A stretch of 64,000 nt of DNA, taken from Stereum hirsutum FP-91666 SS1. Taxonomy: Eukaryota; Basidiomycota; Agaricomycetes; Russulales; Stereaceae. The position numbers and the translations under genes are program-made. Position 1 is the first letter of the stretch, and the number at the start of each line of letters is the position of its first letter. The notes under the pieces are model-generated. The model saw only the letters and a list, made by a program, of their open reading frames with translations, did not search any database and was not told the origin of the DNA. The DNA is taken from the NCBI RefSeq assembly GCF_000264905.1, contig NW_006763141.1:1263310-1327309 (forward strand), given 5' to 3'. Positions 21,961 to 54,660 of this stretch are shown piece after piece.

Positions 21961-22690
21961 GCTAGAGGGAGGGGCGGGTGTTTTTGGGAGATTGGAGCGT
22001 CACTGGCTTGTATATGGGCGAGATGACGGCTGTGTCCGTGATGGACCATTTGAGGTTGCAATGGCGCGGGCGTGTGTGGCATTTTCATTGCGTGAGAGGA
22101 GGCAGAAGTTGAGGAGGAAGACGAGACAGGAAGTCGGAGAGAGGATTTAAAAGACGACGGGTTCAACCCATTCGTCTCGGTATGGACGTGGGGTATATCT
22201 TCTATATGTGGAGGGGGGCAATGCTCGAGCCGCCACTGGGACAGGTCACGTGCTGGGAATCCGCGCGAAAGCTGTATTGGCTACGCGACCGACGCGTAAA
22301 TGGAAAGTTCCGCGCAAGTCCTGTCCGAGCGCGTCGTGCTGGCATGCCTTCGAGGCATACAGACCTCCTAGAAAATGCCACAGACCTCTCGCGGTCCGGG
22401 AATGACCCACATGTAAGATAGATACTATGTAATGCTTCATGAGCACATCTGCTTATTTTATAGAACACAAATGGCTTTGGTAAAGTCAATGCATAATGTG
22501 GACTCAGTGCCACAGTCTACTACTTCTTGTCTTGAGCTTTGCCAGACGACGAAGACTGTCGGACTTTTTCGATTAACAATAGAGAGTGATCCCTACGGGT
22601 CTGATGGGTCTTGTGTATGGAACAGAAAACAAGCCCATAGTGAGCAGTGAGCCAGTCTGACCGGGTAGTACTATGAAGTAGTAATCCCTC
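21961..22690. other. No gene supported
   Basis: This contains possible upstream relics of the Snf4-like fragment (a segment encoding LKWSITDTAVISP near 22030) and otherwise only short ORFs on both strands up to the 3' end of the interrupted coiled-coil gene. Confidence 0.35.
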
Positions 22691-23579
22691 ATGTTATCCT
22701 CGGTACATCAACTCCCCCTCCTCTTCGTCCTTGTCATCCCCATCCTCTTCGCCATGTTCATCCTCTCCTTCCCCCTGATCATCACTCTCGTCCAATGACA
22801 GCAACTCTGAGCTGGAGGCTGTCCCTGATGCTGTTGGAAAGCGACTGTTCCACCCAAGATCAGACCTGTGTGGCACGGACTCGGGTGGAAAGAAGCATGC
22901 GGAAACGTACACTTTATAGCGCTGTAACGCCGCAATGACCTGCTCTAAACGCTCGGGCTTCCGTTTGAGTCGTGCCTTGATCGGCACCTCAGTGTCCTTC
23001 ACGATGGTCCTATAGACTTCGAGTTGAACCTGAAGCTGAGCGTCTAGCATCCTTCGGATAACGGATTCGTCGAGAACGAGTCCGACAGCAGCAAGACGAG
23101 CCATTTTCTCAGCAAGTAGTCGTGCCTTCTTCTCCGCAGCCGCACGCTTCGTAGCTACAGCTTGCGCCGATGCATCTAGGAACAGATCGCGAAATACTCC
23201 AGAGGCACCGCTAGCCTCCGCTACACGCTGAGTCGCCATAACGGAACGGTGATCGTCTGGACCAAAGAAGACCTTCATGAACTTTTCTGTACCGTTATGG
23301 TTGCGCTCTATCTTGGCAGAAGTCAGCTCAATCGTCTGTGTCGGGTGAGCTCCAGTTTCGAGGCGAGTTTCTCCTAGGGAACCCTCGTTTGCGTCATTCG
23401 TTGAAGGTGTGAAGCGCTCAAGAGGCGTAGACCGTGCTATGAGACCATCATCAGCGAACTCCGTAGTGAACCGTTCCCAGGTCTCGAGGCAGCGAACAAG
23501 TCCAGCGAGGAAGACAGGTTGAAAGAAGGGGAGCGTGGGCATGAGTTCGTGAAGGGCAGTGATAGATTTCGAATGCTCC

Positions 23580-23588
23580 CAGGGAAGG
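23580..23588. repeat. MULE target-site duplication, left
   Basis: CAGGGAAGG immediately outside the left terminal repeat. It matches 27505-27513. Confidence 0.93.
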
Positions 23589-23704
23589 GGCCAAGAGGCG
23601 CGAACAGTCGCTTGCCTTTTTCGGATGAACCGCCCCGTTGGCTCCCTCGCTCACCACGTGTCGCGCTCGACTTGGAGAGACGAGAGTCGTCGACGCGCCA
23701 CCTC
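23589..23704 (+). repeat. MULE left terminal inverted repeat (116 bp)
   Basis: Identical to the reverse complement of 27388-27504 except for one missing G in the run near 23675. Confidence 0.95.
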
Positions 23705-23773
23705 GGGACAGGCCAAGTATTTACTCTAGTTCAAGGCTTTTTGTATAGGTAGAAATTATGTAGAGCATATATA

Positions 23774-26700
23774 TCAAACAGCACCATGTGATACCTTCCT
23801 CTTTTGTGCGCGCTGAGGCGAAGCCGGAAGAATGTCGTCCTCTGAATTCGACGGAACACTGGTTTTACGTTTCGTTCGCTTCCACTTTGACACGCGTTGT
23901 TGTTGTGGCGTCGATGGCTTGTCCGGACCCTGGTCTCCCTTGGGCTGCTCGCCGTGTTCGGCCTCCAATCTAAGCCTCTGTAGTTCAATACAGAGTGCAT
24001 TGGCATGGGTCCATGCAGCATCTGCCTGTTCGAGCTCGGTTGTGTAAGTTGCATCCAGGTGGGTCCGACCTAATTGCTCCGCTATTGATCCTATGCGAGG
24101 CGCAAGCACGTCCAGTTCATGGAAGGCGCGTATGAGCGTCTGTGCGTTGATGCTAGCCTTCGCCTCACCCTCGCCGAGCTGCATGATGGACACCGTGTTT
24201 GGCTTGGGCGCTGCTGATGGTTCCTTTACCGTGAGATTCTTCTCAGGCTCTTGGTTCTTCACGGTCTGCGCCTGCCCCGTCCTCTCCTCATCCTTCTCCT
24301 CCACTGCTTCCACTACCATCTCTCTCTCCTCAACATGCCCAGGCTCTGACCAATCCATCTCACTGGCACTAGCGTAGACGGATGTCGCCTCCTCGGTAAG
24401 TTGAGCATGGAACTCTCTCCAGTCCGCATGCTCCGCCCTCACCCTGTCATCTTCACCGGTGTCCGTTGAATCACCACCTAACGCGTCTTCACCCTCTTTC
24501 TCCTCGTAGATATCCTGGCCCTCACGTAGCTCGTCCTCAATGCTCTCAACAGCCTTCTGTATCGGGCCGGTGCCATCGCGGGGAGCATCGAGTGACGTGA
24601 GGGTGCTCGCAAAGAGGCCTTCGAGCGCCCTGGCCTCTCCTTCGCTCGTGGGAATAGGTATAGATGGGATCTTTTTTCCCATCTGTCGTAAAGCGTCCAG
24701 CGATAAGATGGCGGCGCGGATATGCTTGCACGCGCCTCCTCGGTGTTGGAAATCTGGGCATGTACAAGTCGTTGCACCACCGATGTCCACGTTGATATCG
24801 TAGACGATGGGAGTCTTGTCGACGGATAAGGCACCGGCCGAATAGCATTGGAACGTAAGCCGTTTTGTATTGAGGTCAAACGATGGCGCGCCCACTTGCT
24901 TACGGTCAAGCAGGGCCTTTGCAGCATTGTCGCGGGCCTCGTTGGGCGCCAAATAAGCAAGGGTTGGGGGCGCTGGTATGGAAGGTTCCGAAGCGGTAAG
25001 CAGATGTTCAGCACCGGCAGCTCGTACGCGTGTCTCCCAGCCTTTCCTCTGCCGCATGCCTAACGCCCGCTGATGGAATATGGATGGTAGTACCTTGAGT
25101 GTCAAGATCCGAACAAGGACATCCAGCCGAAGTGGGCGGTTGTTTCTTCGCCAACGACGCAAGTGTTTGTTTTTGAGTACTTCATTGAAAGATTCGAGGT
25201 GGTTGGTAGTCGGTAGGACGCCTTCGAAGGTACAGCCCAGAAGTGCTGCAGCGATGTGGCGACCATGATCGGACCAGGACTTCCAAACCGACTCGTGCTT
25301 CACCCAAGTCCGCATAAGATAGTCAAGGTGCGCTATTCCTCCATCCGCTGCCGCCGCCGCCGACTGATCCACGGTCTTCAGCAACTCTAGGGTCTCCTTC
25401 TCCGATTCGATCAAACCGACCGCCTCTGAATGCTCGAGTGATTTGATGAGAGCTTCTTCGATGCGTAAGAGGCGAACGGCAATCTCAGCCGCTCCAACCA
25501 TCGGTGAGTCGCTTTTGAGGTGCCGCTTGCGGTGATTGGTCCAACACTGACGAAGATGGAACTTGCAAAGAAGTAACCAGATATTTGGAAACACCTCGAA
25601 GAGCGCATTACGCTCCTTCGAGTCCGAGTCCGTGATCGCGACCTTTGCGAAGAATGCTTGAGCGTCGCGCTGGCCCAGCGAAGTCTTCCACTTGCCTAGA
25701 AGGCGTGCGAGAACTTCGGTATTATAGCCGCCAGCAGTGAATTTGTTCCCGGAGGGGGCAGAGAACAAGAAAAACGCGATTGGTACACCTTTGCGCTCGT
25801 CGTCGAGAGCCATTAAGATGAATAGTAGAATTTTACTGTTGCAGACGCCGAAAGTACCGTCCATGATGATCTGTGAACCATGTCCGTACCTCCACGCAGC
25901 GTCGTTCATGTCTGGAGTCGCGATGCATACTTCGAAGCGGTCGTTGTTCTTTGTACGAGGAGCATAGTGGAATACGGCTTCGGCGAGAACGGGGTGATAC
26001 TCGGGAGAGGAACGGTCGAGCCAGGAATCGATGTTACGGTGAGGTGCATTGTTGACGTCGACTCCTCCTAATCGCTGATGCTGGCGGTATAGGGAGCGGG
26101 AGTCGCCTTGCTTGAGTACCCAGCGGTACTGAGACTCCTCCCAATTCTTCGGCTGTGAAATGTATCCGCGGGTACGTACCAGGCGGCTATTCTTCTCTCT
26201 GATATCTCCCCATGTTGAACCGTCACTGAGCTGATCCAGTGCAACCTTCCAGACATCCGGATGCAAAGGGAACGGAGGGAGTCTTGCGAGTTTTGCAGAG
26301 CGGCACATTTCATTGTGGTGAAAGTAACCTCGTATTCTGAGGACGACTTTGGTTCCGGTAACGTACACGATCTCGCAATGCCCTAAGCATGCAGTAAACG
26401 AATATGTGGTGTGTCGTATCTTTGACCCTCGAGCCTCGTCGCTTGAGCCGCATTTACTGATGAGTCCATGGTTAGTTAAAATTCTGACTGCTGTCAGTGT
26501 AGTCGAACGCACCACTGATATAGCACCCTTTCGGTGAGGACCTCACTCCCTGTCTTGCTTCCTTTATCCCTCCAACGTGTACTCCACCTTCCTCCAATCT
26601 GTGATCGTGCTCTATCATCTAACCCGTACCCCTCTAGAAGCCTCTGAGCCTCCTCTTGCTCCATGAGATCTCCCGGTGCGAAGACATGGTCCACGATATT

Positions 26701-27288
26701 CACCTTATCTTGGTGAAGAGAGTGGATCTCCTTTTTTTGGTCGCCCGAAAGCCAGAGCTGCTTCACAGGTATGTCCGAGGCCAGTGCTCGAGCCGTAAGA
26801 CCAGGGACGACCTCACGATTAGCCTCCTTCGAGGAGTACACGACAAATTTCGCGGTGGCAGGTTTTGACGCTTTCGTCGGGGTGAGGACCGGTGAGGGCT
26901 GAGTAGACACTGAAGAACCTCCAGGACAGCGGGGCGGATTAGGGTGGCCAGTGGGGAGCGAAGTAATAGAAGGTTTAGGCGTGGATTTCCCGCTACATTC
27001 AGCGGTACTAGAGGGAGTCTTGGGCGCAAATTTGCCAGGGGAGAGGTTTTCAAAGTGGAGGGTATCGGCAGTGTTGGCGGGTGTCTGAGCTCGAGGCTTC
27101 GCGTTCTTACGGGCCATTGGTCTGAGACAATGTGTGGGATATATAACGAGGGCCTGAGGATGAGGGTGGATGTCTCGAGATTGTAGGACATACATATCCA
27201 ATTGCATACGAGGCTTCACCTCCTTGCACTGTGGCACAAGTTCTGTCGAGTTCATCTTGAGGACTCTTTGTGTAGTAGTACTGGGCAT
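23774..27288 (-). CDS. MULE transposase (DDE + SWIM zinc finger)
   Basis: Two exons, 27288-26513 and 26456-23774, are joined by a 56-bp intron (donor GTGCGT, branch TTAACTAACC, acceptor ATCAG). They restore RVLYQCKCGSSDEA and give 1152 residues; the ATG at 27117 is an alternative start. The N-terminal 250 residues are Pro/Ser-rich. The catalytic core has D458 in IIMDGTFG, D535 in AITDSDSKE followed by CKFHLRQCW, and E680 in TTNHLESFNEVLK. A SWIM zinc finger follows (CTCPDF, nine residues later CKH). The C-terminal 250 residues are acidic and then Lys/Arg-rich. The enzyme would cut and rejoin DNA at the inverted repeats in the nucleus. No stop or frameshift is seen, so it may be active. Confidence 0.9.
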
Positions 27289-27387
27289 GCATGTGTTTAT
27301 TCATACGGTACAATTTAATATACATATCCTTCCCAATTCATAGACAGACGCCTCTACAGTGAGCCATGAGTTACTGCATTGTGGCCT

Positions 27388-27504
27388 GAGGTGGCGCGTC
27401 GACGACTCTCGTCTCTCCCAAGTCGAGCGCGACACGTGGTGAGCGAGGGAGCCAACGGGGCGGTTCATCCGAAAAAGGCAAGCGACTGTTCGCGCCTCTT
27501 GGCC
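27388..27504 (-). repeat. MULE right terminal inverted repeat (117 bp)
   Basis: Partner of 23589-23704. The inner boundary is where the two sequences diverge after CCACCTC. Confidence 0.95.
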
Positions 27505-27513
27505 CAGGGAAGG
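27505..27513. repeat. MULE target-site duplication, right
   Basis: CAGGGAAGG immediately outside the right terminal repeat. It is part of the interrupted exon (codons for SLPW on the minus strand). Confidence 0.93.
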
Positions 27514-30087
27514 CTGTCGAAGGAGGCAGTGAGGTAGGCTTCACCGGCACTGTAATTAATGAGCAGGTCAGGGTTACTGATAGCACGACGGATGAAGGAG
27601 AGGAGATCATCGTGCAGCTTCTTGAGATCGAGATGGTTGGTCCCTTCTCGGCGTGCCTGACGGGTGTATGGTGCGAATATACAGTTGTAGGCGAGGGCCA
27701 TGCAACAAAGTTCGGTTACAGTTGCGTCGTCTTCGAGGGAAAGGAAAAGGTTCGCCTCCATGTGGCTCCACCTTGGCTTCTCCTTCCGGTCACGAACCAT
27801 GTAGAGATATGTCTTGTGTTCCGAAAGGTAGGCAATGAGGTCGCAGGCGGCAACGAAGGTTGTTTGGAATCGATTGGCGCTGGTATCGGCGAAGTTGACG
27901 GAGGGTAAGCGTTTCGAGCCGGGGATTGTTTTGATAGGGAGCCAGTACATGCGAAACATATCCTGGTGGCCTTTGTCGGGGCCCTTGTTGTTGTATATTG
28001 CACCAGCGAGCATCGTAGACTTTGGTCCACCACGAGAGCTTTCCTTCACAGCTTTCCGAGCAGCGTCTGAGTCAGTAGCTGAGCGAGCGATAGCGTTTGC
28101 GTTCGCTTTGTTGGCAAGAAGAACGGGAGGCGTGGCGCCTTCGATCCGATCCCATGAGTCGGCCATGCCATCGCAGAACCCCTTCCCACAGTTCATCTCC
28201 TTGTGCATACAGCACCCGACGCGAACAGACCAGTCTAGGTCGTGCTGTACGTTCTCCGGCAGCTCCTCGAATGCAATGTCCCCCAGCTTCCTAACCATAC
28301 TAAGAAAGGCGTCCATAAGCGATGCGGTCTGCCCCTCTCCATCAAGCCCATCCCAAGAATCCGAACCTCCAGCGTTCGAGATAGCCAAGTCGAAAACAGC
28401 AGAGAGAAAGGTCGTGCAGTGCTCAGGAAAGGGTAGAATAGTGCTGAGTTTTTCGAAGCCGAGATCGCGACGAGTGACTGATTTTTTCCAGTCCTCCTGA
28501 AGAAGCCTAGCGTATTTTATAACGTCCTTAGCGTGATCTCCGTGGACTACGCGAAGTTTGCGAGCGAAGTCATCAGGGGAGAATGAAAGCTGGAGGCGCT
28601 TGGCTAGGGGACTGTTCGTGAAGCGAGAAGAGATACGGTCGAGTTGTTGACGGAGTCCGGTGAATTGAGCTTCGGCGGTGTGTGAGAGTGTCTTCTCGAT
28701 ACCGAGAAGTCGATTCTTATGTGTGAAGGGAAGTGATAGGTCGTCGTAATTGGGTGTGAGCATGGTTACACGGCGGGATTCATGGGTAACCCCGCCGATC
28801 GTCGTCCCATCCGCACTGTGACTCAAAGCTATATGAAACAACACGCATATAGTCAGTCAAATGAAGTGGAACAGTCGAAAAGAGGCATGGAAATGAAAAG
28901 GTACCGGGCGCGAGTGTCATTTCCATCCCTAGCTGGATATCGGACGCTATCCCCGCTTCCCTGACCGCTCGTGCAACAGTCTTGCGACTGATACTGTGCG
29001 AGACAGCTGCACCGAAAGCTTTCCCCGTAGCCAGCAGTAACCCTCCGACCCGACTCTGTGCGCAGCCCGCATCAACGTACTCTCGCACAAGAGATCTAAC
29101 CTCAGGCGTATATGCGCCCTTCTCCACCGTCTTCCACACTCGAGCCTCGTTCAACTCTACTCGCATCTCTCGGTTATCGCTTTTCAGGTCGTTCGTGTTC
29201 CTCTTTTGTCGAACGAGACTCTTCTTCAGCAGCCGATAGTCTTCCTGGAGAGTAGAGAACTTGGAGTGTACCGATGATAGCGTAGACTGGCAGGATTCAA
29301 GCGAGGACAAGAGTTGTTGGTTCAGGGTTGAAAGTTCTGTGATGCGATTCTGGTCTGAATGATACCGAGTTTCGTACGAGGTGTTGACTTGAACGGGTCG
29401 AAGAATCAGACTTTGAAGAATAGCGAGTTCCGAGCAAAGAGTTGTTTCACGAGAATGAGCAGTGGAGAGATCTTCATGTAGCAGAGCAATCTAGCGAGCA
29501 CCACGTCCGAAATGATCGGTAACAGTGGCACATCATGTTAGACAAGCACTAACCTTCCCTTGGAGATCTAGATTGGAGGACTGAGCAGCATCCCTTTGTA
29601 TTGAGTTAACCTCAAGCTCCTCTCCGAGCCTCCGACCGTACCGCTGCCAGCGCAAGCGCTCCTTAGTAACAGTACGAGAATGTGATCGGTTCCGCTCCAA
29701 TTTCTTTTCTGTAGCTAGCAAGGTCGCCGAGATCCGAGTGTAACGTTGATCTTGAATAGAGAGGGTATGTCGGAGCTGATCTCGCTCCTGTACATGTTCT
29801 GATGCAAGCTCTTGAGAGTCCTTTAGCTGCTTTCCAAGAGATATAAGCTGATTTTGAAGTTCCTGGATGCATGCTCGAGAGTTGTCTGATGCTGTTTTAC
29901 TGCGAGTGCTCATGTTTGATGATGCTGCTGAGGACAAAGAGGAAGGAAGGGGAGCAAATGATTGTATTGTATTGCAGTCTGTACTAAGGAAATGAGCCGA
30001 AGCCTGAGAGCCGTGTCGAAGCCGCTTTTTCCGAGCAGCAGCAAGGGCTTCTAGCTGAAGCTCAGTTTTTGCCGATTTGGGTCCCAT

Positions 30088-31464
30088 AGCGTGAGCACAA
30101 GCACCATAGATATAGCATAAGTTATTAGAGTCAGAGTATGACCAGCAGTGAGTTCACGGAAGCCCAAGAAAGCAGGAGGGCCGAGATGGAGGACGGAGGA
30201 GAAGACGACGCGCGTACATTTTGCACGGAGCGGTGCCGCACGGTCAACTTCGCGCGTACGACGAGGAACGCGACGCGTAGACGCGTCGTCTGCTCTGCGG
30301 TCAACTGCGTTCAGTACCAATTGTACGAGAACCCTAACGTGGACACCTGTGCTCTAATGTCAATAAGCAAATGCTATAGGCCGATGCATATCTGTAAAAT
30401 GGACAGAGCGATTGGGCCGGTGATTTTTTCTCACCTAGATCTAACTCATTTCCCGATACCGCGCGGCCGTTCTCGGTCAAATTTTGACCGTTTTTAAATC
30501 CCATTGTACAAGCTTTCATTTTGGATCCAAAGAACCAGTGTAAATATTTGTACGATTTTAGGGAGGCATATAAGCAAATGGTTAGAAAAAGAGGTTTGCG
30601 ACACAGGTTTCGAGGTGGCCCGGACCAAAAGTCATGTGATCGCGTCGTGGGAACGCATTGTGGCTGCTTAGACATTGCCCCCCTCCACTATATGTGTGTC
30701 GACGGGTGTGATGGAAGGACATTTGAGCGGGTCCGGCATCCATTCTGTCAGCACACATTGAACCAGCATAATATTATAATTAGAAGAAAGAGGCTCGTCT
30801 CGTCAGTCCAGATGAACCCGGACAGCAAAGACAGTGAAATAGACGAACCATCAAAAAAATGCTGTGCGGCTCCGCTCTTCGCCGTTGTCTCCCTCTCTCC
30901 CATCTGAGGTTTCATAGCGGACGACCCGCCGTGTGCTGGACGAGGAGTGAGAGTGGCCTGGGTTTGGAATTCGGGCGCGGCGAGAAGAGCGAGGTAGTTC
31001 TCGGCATTCTGTGCAGTAGTGGTCAGAGGCTGCAAGACATAGACTCGCATCCAAGAACATACAAAGTTTGTGTAGAGATACGAGCAGAAGATGTTCAAAG
31101 GTTAGCCTTGGAAAAGACGAGCTCGGAGAGTGCGCAGTCAAGCAGCAGGGCGTACCGTGAGGGGTGACGATGAGAGTCGAAAGAGGGTTGGATATTGGTG
31201 GGTGAGTGGGGAAAATATAAACGGAATAGACGACTGGCAGAAGGCATATTAGCTTAGGAGACAAAGGAGGAGAGAGAGGACGGACCGGCCATTGAAGGAG
31301 GACATCGTGGGTGTAGTGTCGACGATAATGAACCGAACCCACACTAACAGACACTAACTCTTGTCGTGCCCTATACGCATGAGAGAAAGATCAAGATTAT
31401 AGTGCGAAATAGATGAAAAGACAGCGTACCATGGTCGAGTTGCCGCAACTCGAGCTTGATGGAG
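30088..31464. other. No gene resolved
   Basis: Left end: promoter side of the interrupted gene. Two overlapping minus ORFs, 30748-31098 (with AQNAENYLALLAAPEF) and 30851-31354, compete in different frames. The first looks more protein-like and could be a small gene, but no family is recognised and no supporting splice site was found. Confidence 0.3.
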
Positions 31465-32104: not shown

Positions 32105-34100
32105 CTATCCCACAAGTCGCCTCTTCAGTTCGTCCTTCGAGGTGAGTAAGTGAAAATTACTGGTGATTGCGTCGATATACACCTTGGAAAGAAACTGACT
32201 ACTCCGAATACAGAGCAAGTCGGCATGTCGTGCGCTTTGTAGACGGACTTTGCGTACCCGGGCAGTAATTTTCTGAACGACATCCTTGCGGTCCTTTCGG
32301 CTGAGTTGTAGATATTGGAAGGTATCGTCCGTGACCGTTACAACCACCATGGCTCCGAGTCCTAGTGCTGATGCAGAGCTGGTTTGGGCTTTCGCGGGTC
32401 GAGGCTCAGGAATAATGTCGCCTACACACACACTGCATCGACCGCAGTCTCGGTGAGTCCCCACAGCTCCAATCCCGTTGAACACGATGTTAATCTGACG
32501 TTGTATGCATATGTCTCGGGTCCACGCTGCGACGATCAGCAATAGCGCAATGCAGACCTTCTTCTTGCTGTCGCCGGTAGGATTTTTGCTCTTGCACGAT
32601 CGGCGTCGTTTCTTCGGTCTCAGCGTGCATTCGGGGTAGACTTCCTTGTCCGGTACGTCGTCTTCATCCATATCCTCCTCCTCCTCCTCCTCCTCCTCCC
32701 CCTCCTCCTCCTATTCCCTCTCTTCCTCTGCATCCTCGTTCTCGTCACCCTCACCATCACGTTTGCTAACGTTCTCATCCCCATCATCTTGTTCTTCCAT
32801 CGAATCCGCTTTAACGTCGCTACCATACCCTACACCTCCCACCTCTCCTACATCTTCGACGTCGACGTCCATCATGACTCCCTCAACAAGTGTCGTATTG
32901 CCCTCCCATATCAGGGTCTCTTCGCCCGGCCCTCCAACCGACTCCGACTCGATACCCGTATCGTTCGCCATCAAGATTCGTCCGTCGGATTCTCCTTGAC
33001 GTACGTCAAGGCTTGCCCACGCTGATGGTCGGTAAAATACACGAAGACCTCTCCCTGGGTATCTGGGACCACCCGAACGAGTCGACCAGCACTCTGAACG
33101 AGGGATGAGGCGGTGCTGGGCCCTGGGAATATGACAACTTGCCGGGCATCTGGTGGGTCAATTCTGAGTTCCATAACCGCGGTCGCCACGAACCCAGCGG
33201 CCTGACGGGTGTCTTCTGTTTCGTATGTACAAGGCCGTGACCCTATCTTTTTTACAATCGGGGCAGGTCATCGAGTGCATGTGACGGATTAGGGTATATT
33301 TATCGTTCTGGAGCCCTGGCGGAAGAAGTGAACGAAGATAGACGGCGATACGATGCCCGGCCTCTATGTTGGAGAACAGGAAGAAAGTCGGTACGTCAGA
33401 TGCCTTCGTCATATCCTCGGAAACTAACTAATCCAGATCGCGAAACTGATGAGTCGTGTGGGCGTAAGACAGCTCTCGGAAAATGTAGTTGACGTTGTGA
33501 CGTTCGCACTCGCGGCGGTCCAGGTGATATTTCCCTTCGCTGAAGCCGAGTTTGCTGAGTACGCGTTCCGTTTGTCGTCCAGGTTCGAGTGTAGCCGAAA
33601 GTGCGACGACTGTGAGGTCCTTTGGTGCGTGTGCATGAATCGTCCATATCTCTTCGTATGCGTTGTGAAAGTCGGGGCCACAGTGGGACACAAGGTGAGC
33701 TTCATCAACGTATAGTACCTTCCATCTCTTCCGAAAAGTTTCGTTGTTGATCAGTCTTGAACTCGGGCTTCCGTAGGGCCTCTGGTGCGAGCGCGATGAC
33801 TTGGAACTTCCCCGACAGCACCTCTGCCCAAAGATCACAACCTTCCTCTGCTTCACGCGCAAGGTGCTCCGCGTTGATCACCATAGACGTTATCCCTTTC
33901 GCAGTCATCGTTTTGGACTAGTACCAAAACAAGGTCAGTAGTGGCTCGCTTTCATATATGTTCGTTGCTTATATTTTCTTACCATATCATCTTCCAATAA
34001 ATTAGTTGGTTCCACCACGACGATAATCATCTCTTTCTTCAACGGGATCTTTTCGGCGCACACCACTGCGATGTGCATTCGGAGTCCTTGGTGAGCGTTC
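32105..34100 (-). pseudogene. RecQ-like DNA helicase, disrupted
   Basis: Helicase motifs occur in order on the minus strand: EMIIVVVEPTNLLEDDM (motif Ia-like, about 34030), VLYVDEAHLVS (motif II, about 33730), VVALSATLEPG (motif III, about 33610), PTFFLFSNIEAGHR (motif IV, about 33390) and STASSLVQSAGRLVR (motif VI, about 33080). An acidic stretch and a Cys-containing C-terminal region (HRDCGRCSVC, about 32450) follow. Defects: the frame changes between 33760 and 33740, an in-frame TAG lies at 33430-33428 where intact relatives appear to have Trp, and the frame shifts again near 33230. No Walker A motif was found upstream. RecQ helicases unwind DNA in repair, and diverged multicopy versions occur in fungal repeats and subtelomeres. 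This copy looks dead. Confidence 0.72.
32673..32711. repeat. TCC microsatellite
   Basis: A run of TCC triplets with one interruption, coding for Glu/Gly-rich acidic sequence in the helicase relic. Confidence 0.9.
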
Positions 34101-53682: not shown

Positions 53683-54660
53683 AGGAGGTGAGGAAGGCGA
53701 CGCTGGAGTTTATGATCAGCTTGAGTGAGGCGAAGCCGGGGATGATGATGAGGAGGGGTGGGTATAGCTTTTGGTAGGGGGTGTTTGATTGGGATGGAGG
53801 GGATCGATGTGAGGGAGGAGGAGTTGGGCGGGTGGTTGGAGGCTGATGTGAGTTTTTTGTTTTTCTTTTCGTTGGTGGATTTCCTTCTGGATGGAGTGGC
53901 TCGAAGTTTGGTCGGAGTGGCGAGACCGAGGTTTGGTGCGATGCGATGGAGGCTCTGTATGTCCGGGAGGACGTGCAACTTATTGTGGCGTTTGAAGCGT
54001 TCTGCATCGCCCATTCGTCTCACTTTTCGTTAGCCTATAACTCCCGTGCATTGATCGGAAGCTGACCATATTTCCTCCCCAATTCATGTCCCGCGGTACC
54101 TCCTTCCCTGCCCTCTGATAACCTACCCACTTCACTCCTCTCGGACGATACCTCCACTCACAACGTACAAACCGCTCAAATCAACTTATCCAGCCGCCTA
54201 AATCACTAACGAAATCAATAAACTCGCACGTACCGACCAAATACCGCAACCAATACAGCCCTCCGACGCCCCGACAGATGATACGTACCCACACATCTAC
54301 GAACAGTCGCTCGACAGGCTCACGTGCGCCGTTGGCGGGAAAGCGGTGCTGCCCGCTGCGCTTCAGTTGATTCCGGGCATGGCGGTACGTCGTTTCAAGC
54401 TCGGTTTCCCTCGTTCGCCATGTTCTTTTCCTTTTCCTTTTTCTCTTCATCGTTGTTATCGTCTCCGTTAGCGGATCTGTTTTGTCTTCTTATTCGTCTT
54501 GTCCAATTTCTGGGCTGGTGTTCGTGATGGCGTTGGTGTGTATCGGTATAACGGTGCGACGGTGCGTTGATGCCGGTATGGCGGGTTCGCATGGGGCGAT
54601 AGGCGAGTCACGATCGGAGGCTGAGATATGCGGGTTTGATGGCCATCGCTGCGGTAGGTG
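53683..54660 (+). pseudogene. Importin-5/Kap121-like fragment B (N-terminal-ward part)
   Basis: Starts at a TCCTAG acceptor with EVRKATLEFMISLSEAKPG. It continues near 53780-53850 with RGCLIGMEGIDVREEELGGW then LEAD (out of frame with the first piece unless spliced), near 54275-54383 with TDDTYPHIYEQSLDRLTCAV, GGKAVLPAALQLIPGM, and near 54610-54660 with RRLRYAGLMAIAAVGEG. In an intact importin-5 these come directly before the sequence found at 51526-52015. Here they lie downstream of it, beyond the ATPase fragment. Spacing between pieces is irregular and the reading frame is broken. Confidence 0.75.

Follow-up and report, generated by a model that had tools for sequence, protein, structure and literature searches.

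A MULE inserted in the probable transposase gene of a hAT-like element: probable nested DNA transposons in Stereum hirsutum

The locus studied here raises the question of what kind of gene was broken when a MULE, a DNA transposon, entered a long coding sequence of the fungus Stereum hirsutum FP-91666 SS1. The window, by which we mean the whole stretch of 64,000 nucleotides analysed (contig NW_006763141.1, C11 below, positions 1,263,310 to 1,327,309), had been read in the initial annotation as containing a MULE that splits an otherwise intact gene, and that gene was taken for a host gene, the allele being a natural knockout. The splitting is borne out by the MULE and SWIM domains, inverted ends and 9-bp duplication of the inner element and by the open frame of the joined gene. 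The identity of the gene is not, and we propose instead that the locus consists of two nested DNA transposons, a MULE within a hAT-like transposon, with a probability of roughly 0.9. The host-gene reading was replaced because the interrupted gene has inverted ends and a 7-bp duplication of its own, because a second locus on contig C10 has the same anatomy, and because the predicted fold of the protein is transposase-like. The interpretation of the locus thereby shifts from a gene knockout to nested transposons, and the order of the two insertions can be given. Nested transposons are ordinary, and the modest novelty lies in the outer family: ends and duplications are supplied for a widespread mushroom protein family that Pfam does not recognise, which allows repeat annotation to find it and its mobility to be tested.

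The inner MULE occupies 3,916 bp on the minus strand (23589..27504), with inverted ends of about 122 bp. In the alignment of these ends (122/123 bases), a run of 85 identical bases is followed by a one-base indel, a further run of 31 identical bases and two mismatches near the inner edge; the two copies of the 9-bp target duplication CAGGGAAGG (23580..23588 and 27505..27513) directly adjoin the ends. Among the nine boundary positions tried, this one alone yields matching 9-mers; a third, unrelated copy of CAGGGAAGG lies at 54102-54110, the chance expectation being 0.48. The transposase frame (23774..26515, minus strand, 913 aa) matches PF10551 (MULE, E 1.8e-8) and PF04434 (SWIM, E 3.5e-8), both above the Pfam cut-off, and an upstream open frame of 264 aa (26494..27288, minus strand), which had no match in a Pfam scan, may be a first exon. 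In its two domains, long inverted ends and 9-bp duplication the inner element resembles the MULE family and shows nothing unusual.

The flanks of the MULE were joined by script at 27505/23579, and GT..AG intron pairs were tested in two searched ranges. An open frame was left by three of the 392 pairs (3330, 3315 and 3321 nt), and introns 29553-29491 and 28904-28829 yield exactly 3,330 nt with the stop counted in, in exon blocks of 534, 586 and 1,324+886 nt. The three-exon join proposed earlier is reproduced, its 1110 codons being 1,109 residues plus the stop. On the minus strand, exon 1 (29554..30087) carries the start codon and a probable coiled coil; exon 2 (28905..29490) carries, as judged by eye from the sequence and the model, coiled coil and a helix-turn-helix-like region; and exon 3 is divided by the MULE into a 5' part with two candidate catalytic aspartates (27505..28828) and a 3' part with a candidate catalytic glutamate (22694..23579). 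The junction codon of the joined frame encodes tryptophan. The junction point is spanned without a break in 40 of 43 aligned relatives (a count that leaves out the window's own record, P0001), 36 of these 40 having tryptophan there, and the closest relative, P0002 (61-63% identity), is continuous across it. The initial annotation had named as counterevidence an orthologue in which this point holds stops or another sequence; none was seen among the relatives. Because the joined frame is open and the relatives are continuous across the junction, the gene is judged from its sequence to have been intact when the MULE arrived, as had been claimed. The suggested comparison with the other nucleus would have no bearing on this assembly should SS1 denote a single-spore isolate.

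The whole interrupted gene is enclosed by inverted ends TGGAGGGGGGCAATG, which begin at 22209 and 30687, and by an exact duplication, CTATATG. The left terminal inverted repeat spans 22209..22223 (plus strand), with a weaker match continuing to about 22236, and the right one spans 30673..30687 (minus strand); the two copies of the 7-bp target duplication lie outside them at 22202..22208 and 30688..30694. With the MULE and one copy of its duplication removed, the outer element measures 4,554 bp. Exact copies of the 16-mer GTGGAGGGGGGCAATG of its ends occur twice in the 46-Mb genome, each time at the window locus, and the non-coding ends (22208-22700 and 30088-30688) are single copy, no other genome match having been found, which is a lower bound.

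A protein-level genome search found two loci of the outer family, again a lower bound, namely the window locus and one on C10. The latter (C10:263512-267913, L039 2513-6914) holds a second hAT-like element of 4,402 bp with an uninterrupted frame of 1,044 aa, which is 31% identical over the matched part. Its ends are TGGTGTTGGGCAACC and TGGTGATGGGCAACC (TGG..CCA), with a CTCCTAA duplication on both sides, and the strongest inverted match of this element is found immediately inward of the terminal 20 bp. A reading of the outer duplication in the window as 5 bp (TATAT, with ends starting GTGG) was considered and dropped, since the C10 locus sets the register at TGG; the duplication is therefore 7 bp at both loci.

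The outer transposase belongs to a family with relatives in many mushrooms, Hericium, Amylostereum, Lenzites, Jaapia and Mycena among them. The searches for relatives scored only the candidates with most words in common, and the resulting alignment, A1, holds 44 of 46 proteins (P0017 and P0046 were left out); a further protein search with A1 added three more (P0047-P0049). Relatives were also sought in viral and prokaryote contigs, none was confirmed there, and therefore no ends could be read from other species. A Pfam scan of the 44 proteins of A1 at E 0.01 gave five families with one member each, none of them a transposase. Three matches from a sequence search of the PDB with A1 (E 0.077 to 0.098, keratin and CAP repeat) were taken as chance. 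The outer protein itself matches no Pfam family. Its predicted model (predicted local distance difference test score, pLDDT, 92) shows an RNase H-like core into which a large helical segment is inserted, and its best match in two structure-comparison programs is the Hermes hAT transposase. Residues D79, D170 and E576, candidates for a D-D-E catalytic triad, are conserved and lie within the Hermes-matched range, and other acidic residues are equally conserved. The outer protein presumably moves its own DNA, with catalysis putatively assigned to particular acidic residues.

In the sequence of events that we propose, a 4.55-kb hAT-like cut-and-paste element with TGG..CCA ends would have inserted first, producing the 7-bp target duplication. 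Its one recognised gene would have encoded a transposase of about 1,109 residues, in which a coiled coil and a helix-turn-helix-like region accompany the RNase H-like core. Later, a 3.9-kb MULE would have entered exon 3, duplicating 9 bp and parting the candidate catalytic glutamate from the two candidate aspartates. The outer gene presumably lost its function altogether after this insertion.

The view that the interrupted gene belongs to the host, perhaps as a domesticated transposase, and that the allele is a natural knockout draws on real features of the locus, since the non-coding ends of the gene are single copy, its frame was intact, and its relatives occur in many mushrooms. Domestication, however, usually costs transposons their inverted ends and duplications, and here an exact 7-bp duplication and inverted ends surround the gene, while C10, the sole related locus found, is built alike; we consider a host gene quite unlikely. 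That these ends and duplications arose by chance is less likely still, and indeed highly improbable: the inverted match on C11 was equalled in one of 500 shuffles of the 1-kb flanks, but the ends at both loci start with TGG in the same register and are flanked by exact 7-bp duplications, and in a pattern search the outer end sequence was found at the window locus alone in the genome.

The deposited gene model at this locus bears on whether the outer gene might still be expressed. P0001 is STEHIDRAFT_38785 of S. hirsutum FP-91666 SS1; it matches the longest unbroken part of the gene at 99%, represents the same locus as the window on C11 and not a second allele, and has an intron 2 identical to that of the joined frame. 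The MULE is handled in this record as a 3.9-kb GT-AG intron (window 27544-23611). If the MULE were indeed spliced out, the gene would still yield a nearly whole protein, as P0001 implies, and the record does join over the MULE at residues 496-507, with a donor GT at 27544 and an acceptor AG ending at 23611, within the MULE end (read by hand). The join, however, loses a conserved stretch and gains MULE-encoded residues, and it coincides with the sole run of three or more residues with pLDDT below 50 (500-505). Its acceptor is AAG rather than the usual YAG, and the model itself was probably produced ab initio. Splicing of this kind therefore seems unlikely to us, and STEHIDRAFT_38785 is probably a wrong gene model that skips a transposon as an intron.

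Among known transposon groups, the outer element is most readily compared with hAT elements and their structural representative Hermes (4d1q, 6dwz, 8sjd), which it resembles in fold, with a long helical insertion in the RNase H-like core, in its inverted ends and in having one recognised gene. It differs in that its duplication is 7 bp at both loci instead of the usual 8 bp, its protein is 10-12% identical to the Hermes structures in structural alignments, and that protein has an N-terminal coiled coil and no Pfam hAT dimerisation match. PF05699, the profile of the hAT dimerisation region, gave no match at E 0.01 in the 44 scanned members; of its 11 genome matches, not one lies at the window locus or at C10:264471-267602. 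Because PF05699 is unmatched and the duplications are 7 bp, the outer element is hAT-like and not hAT proper. Groups of hAT with 5-, 6- and 7-bp duplications have been reported (PMC12730594), among them hAT7 of the rust fungi Puccinia and Melampsora, which has 7-bp duplications and was assigned to hAT by sequence similarity (Kojima, 2025, PMC12730594); for this reason the 7-bp duplication alone is not new. The outer element is like hAT7 in being fungal with 7-bp duplications, but the outer family matched no hAT profile. The hAT elements of Marasmius oreades have a recognisable hAT dimerisation region, unlike the outer family (PMC9674265).

A 7-bp duplication is also shared with some members of the KDZ group (Kyakuja/Dileera/Zisupton). 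The same source describes two Kyakuja families of Laccaria with 7-bp duplications, CA..TG termini and no inverted repeats (PMC12730594), in contrast to the TGG..CCA inverted ends of the outer element. Assignment to KDZ was ruled out by profile PF18758, which matches 36 genome stretches, none at either locus, and none of the 44 members scanned. The 36 PF18758 and 11 PF05699 matches indicate that other transposon families are present in the genome. In the literature searched, which was available in part, no prior description of the outer transposase family was found. It is possible, and we offer it tentatively, that the outer element founds a separate Agaricomycete lineage of cut-and-paste transposons, sister to hAT, with members present in mushroom genomes under names like hypothetical protein. 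Such a lineage would be marked by the conserved motif GCCMHK..N, by an N-terminal coiled coil together with a helix-turn-helix-like region, and by TGG..CCA inverted ends with 7-bp duplications.

Near the element, nine neighbouring open reading frames gave one Pfam match, below threshold: that of a 144-aa frame at window 33428-33862 to a DEAD-box helicase (E 0.0013).

The MULE is not alone in the S. hirsutum genome. At least 19 stretches match its transposase, the window's own counted in, a lower bound to which certain loci contribute several stretches, and relatives on C6 and C22 have about 80% of the MULE end sequence in common. Ends were recognised in five of the nine relatives examined (not in L064, L066, L067 and L069), and all five are flanked by 9-bp duplications (CAGGATGTG, CAGTTTGCC, CCCCACACC, CAGAAAGTG and CGAATCCGG). 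One relative, of 4.7 kb (L040 2355-7037, C22:365854-370536), matches the transposase at query residues 18-100 and 829-910 only, with long frames there despite the short matches (1,086 and 1,175 aa); its middle part may have been replaced or be very diverged. In the strand shown, CAG starts four of the six MULE duplications (the window's CAGGGAAGG and those of L040, L041, L063, L065 and L068), which points to a possible CAG target preference of these MULEs.
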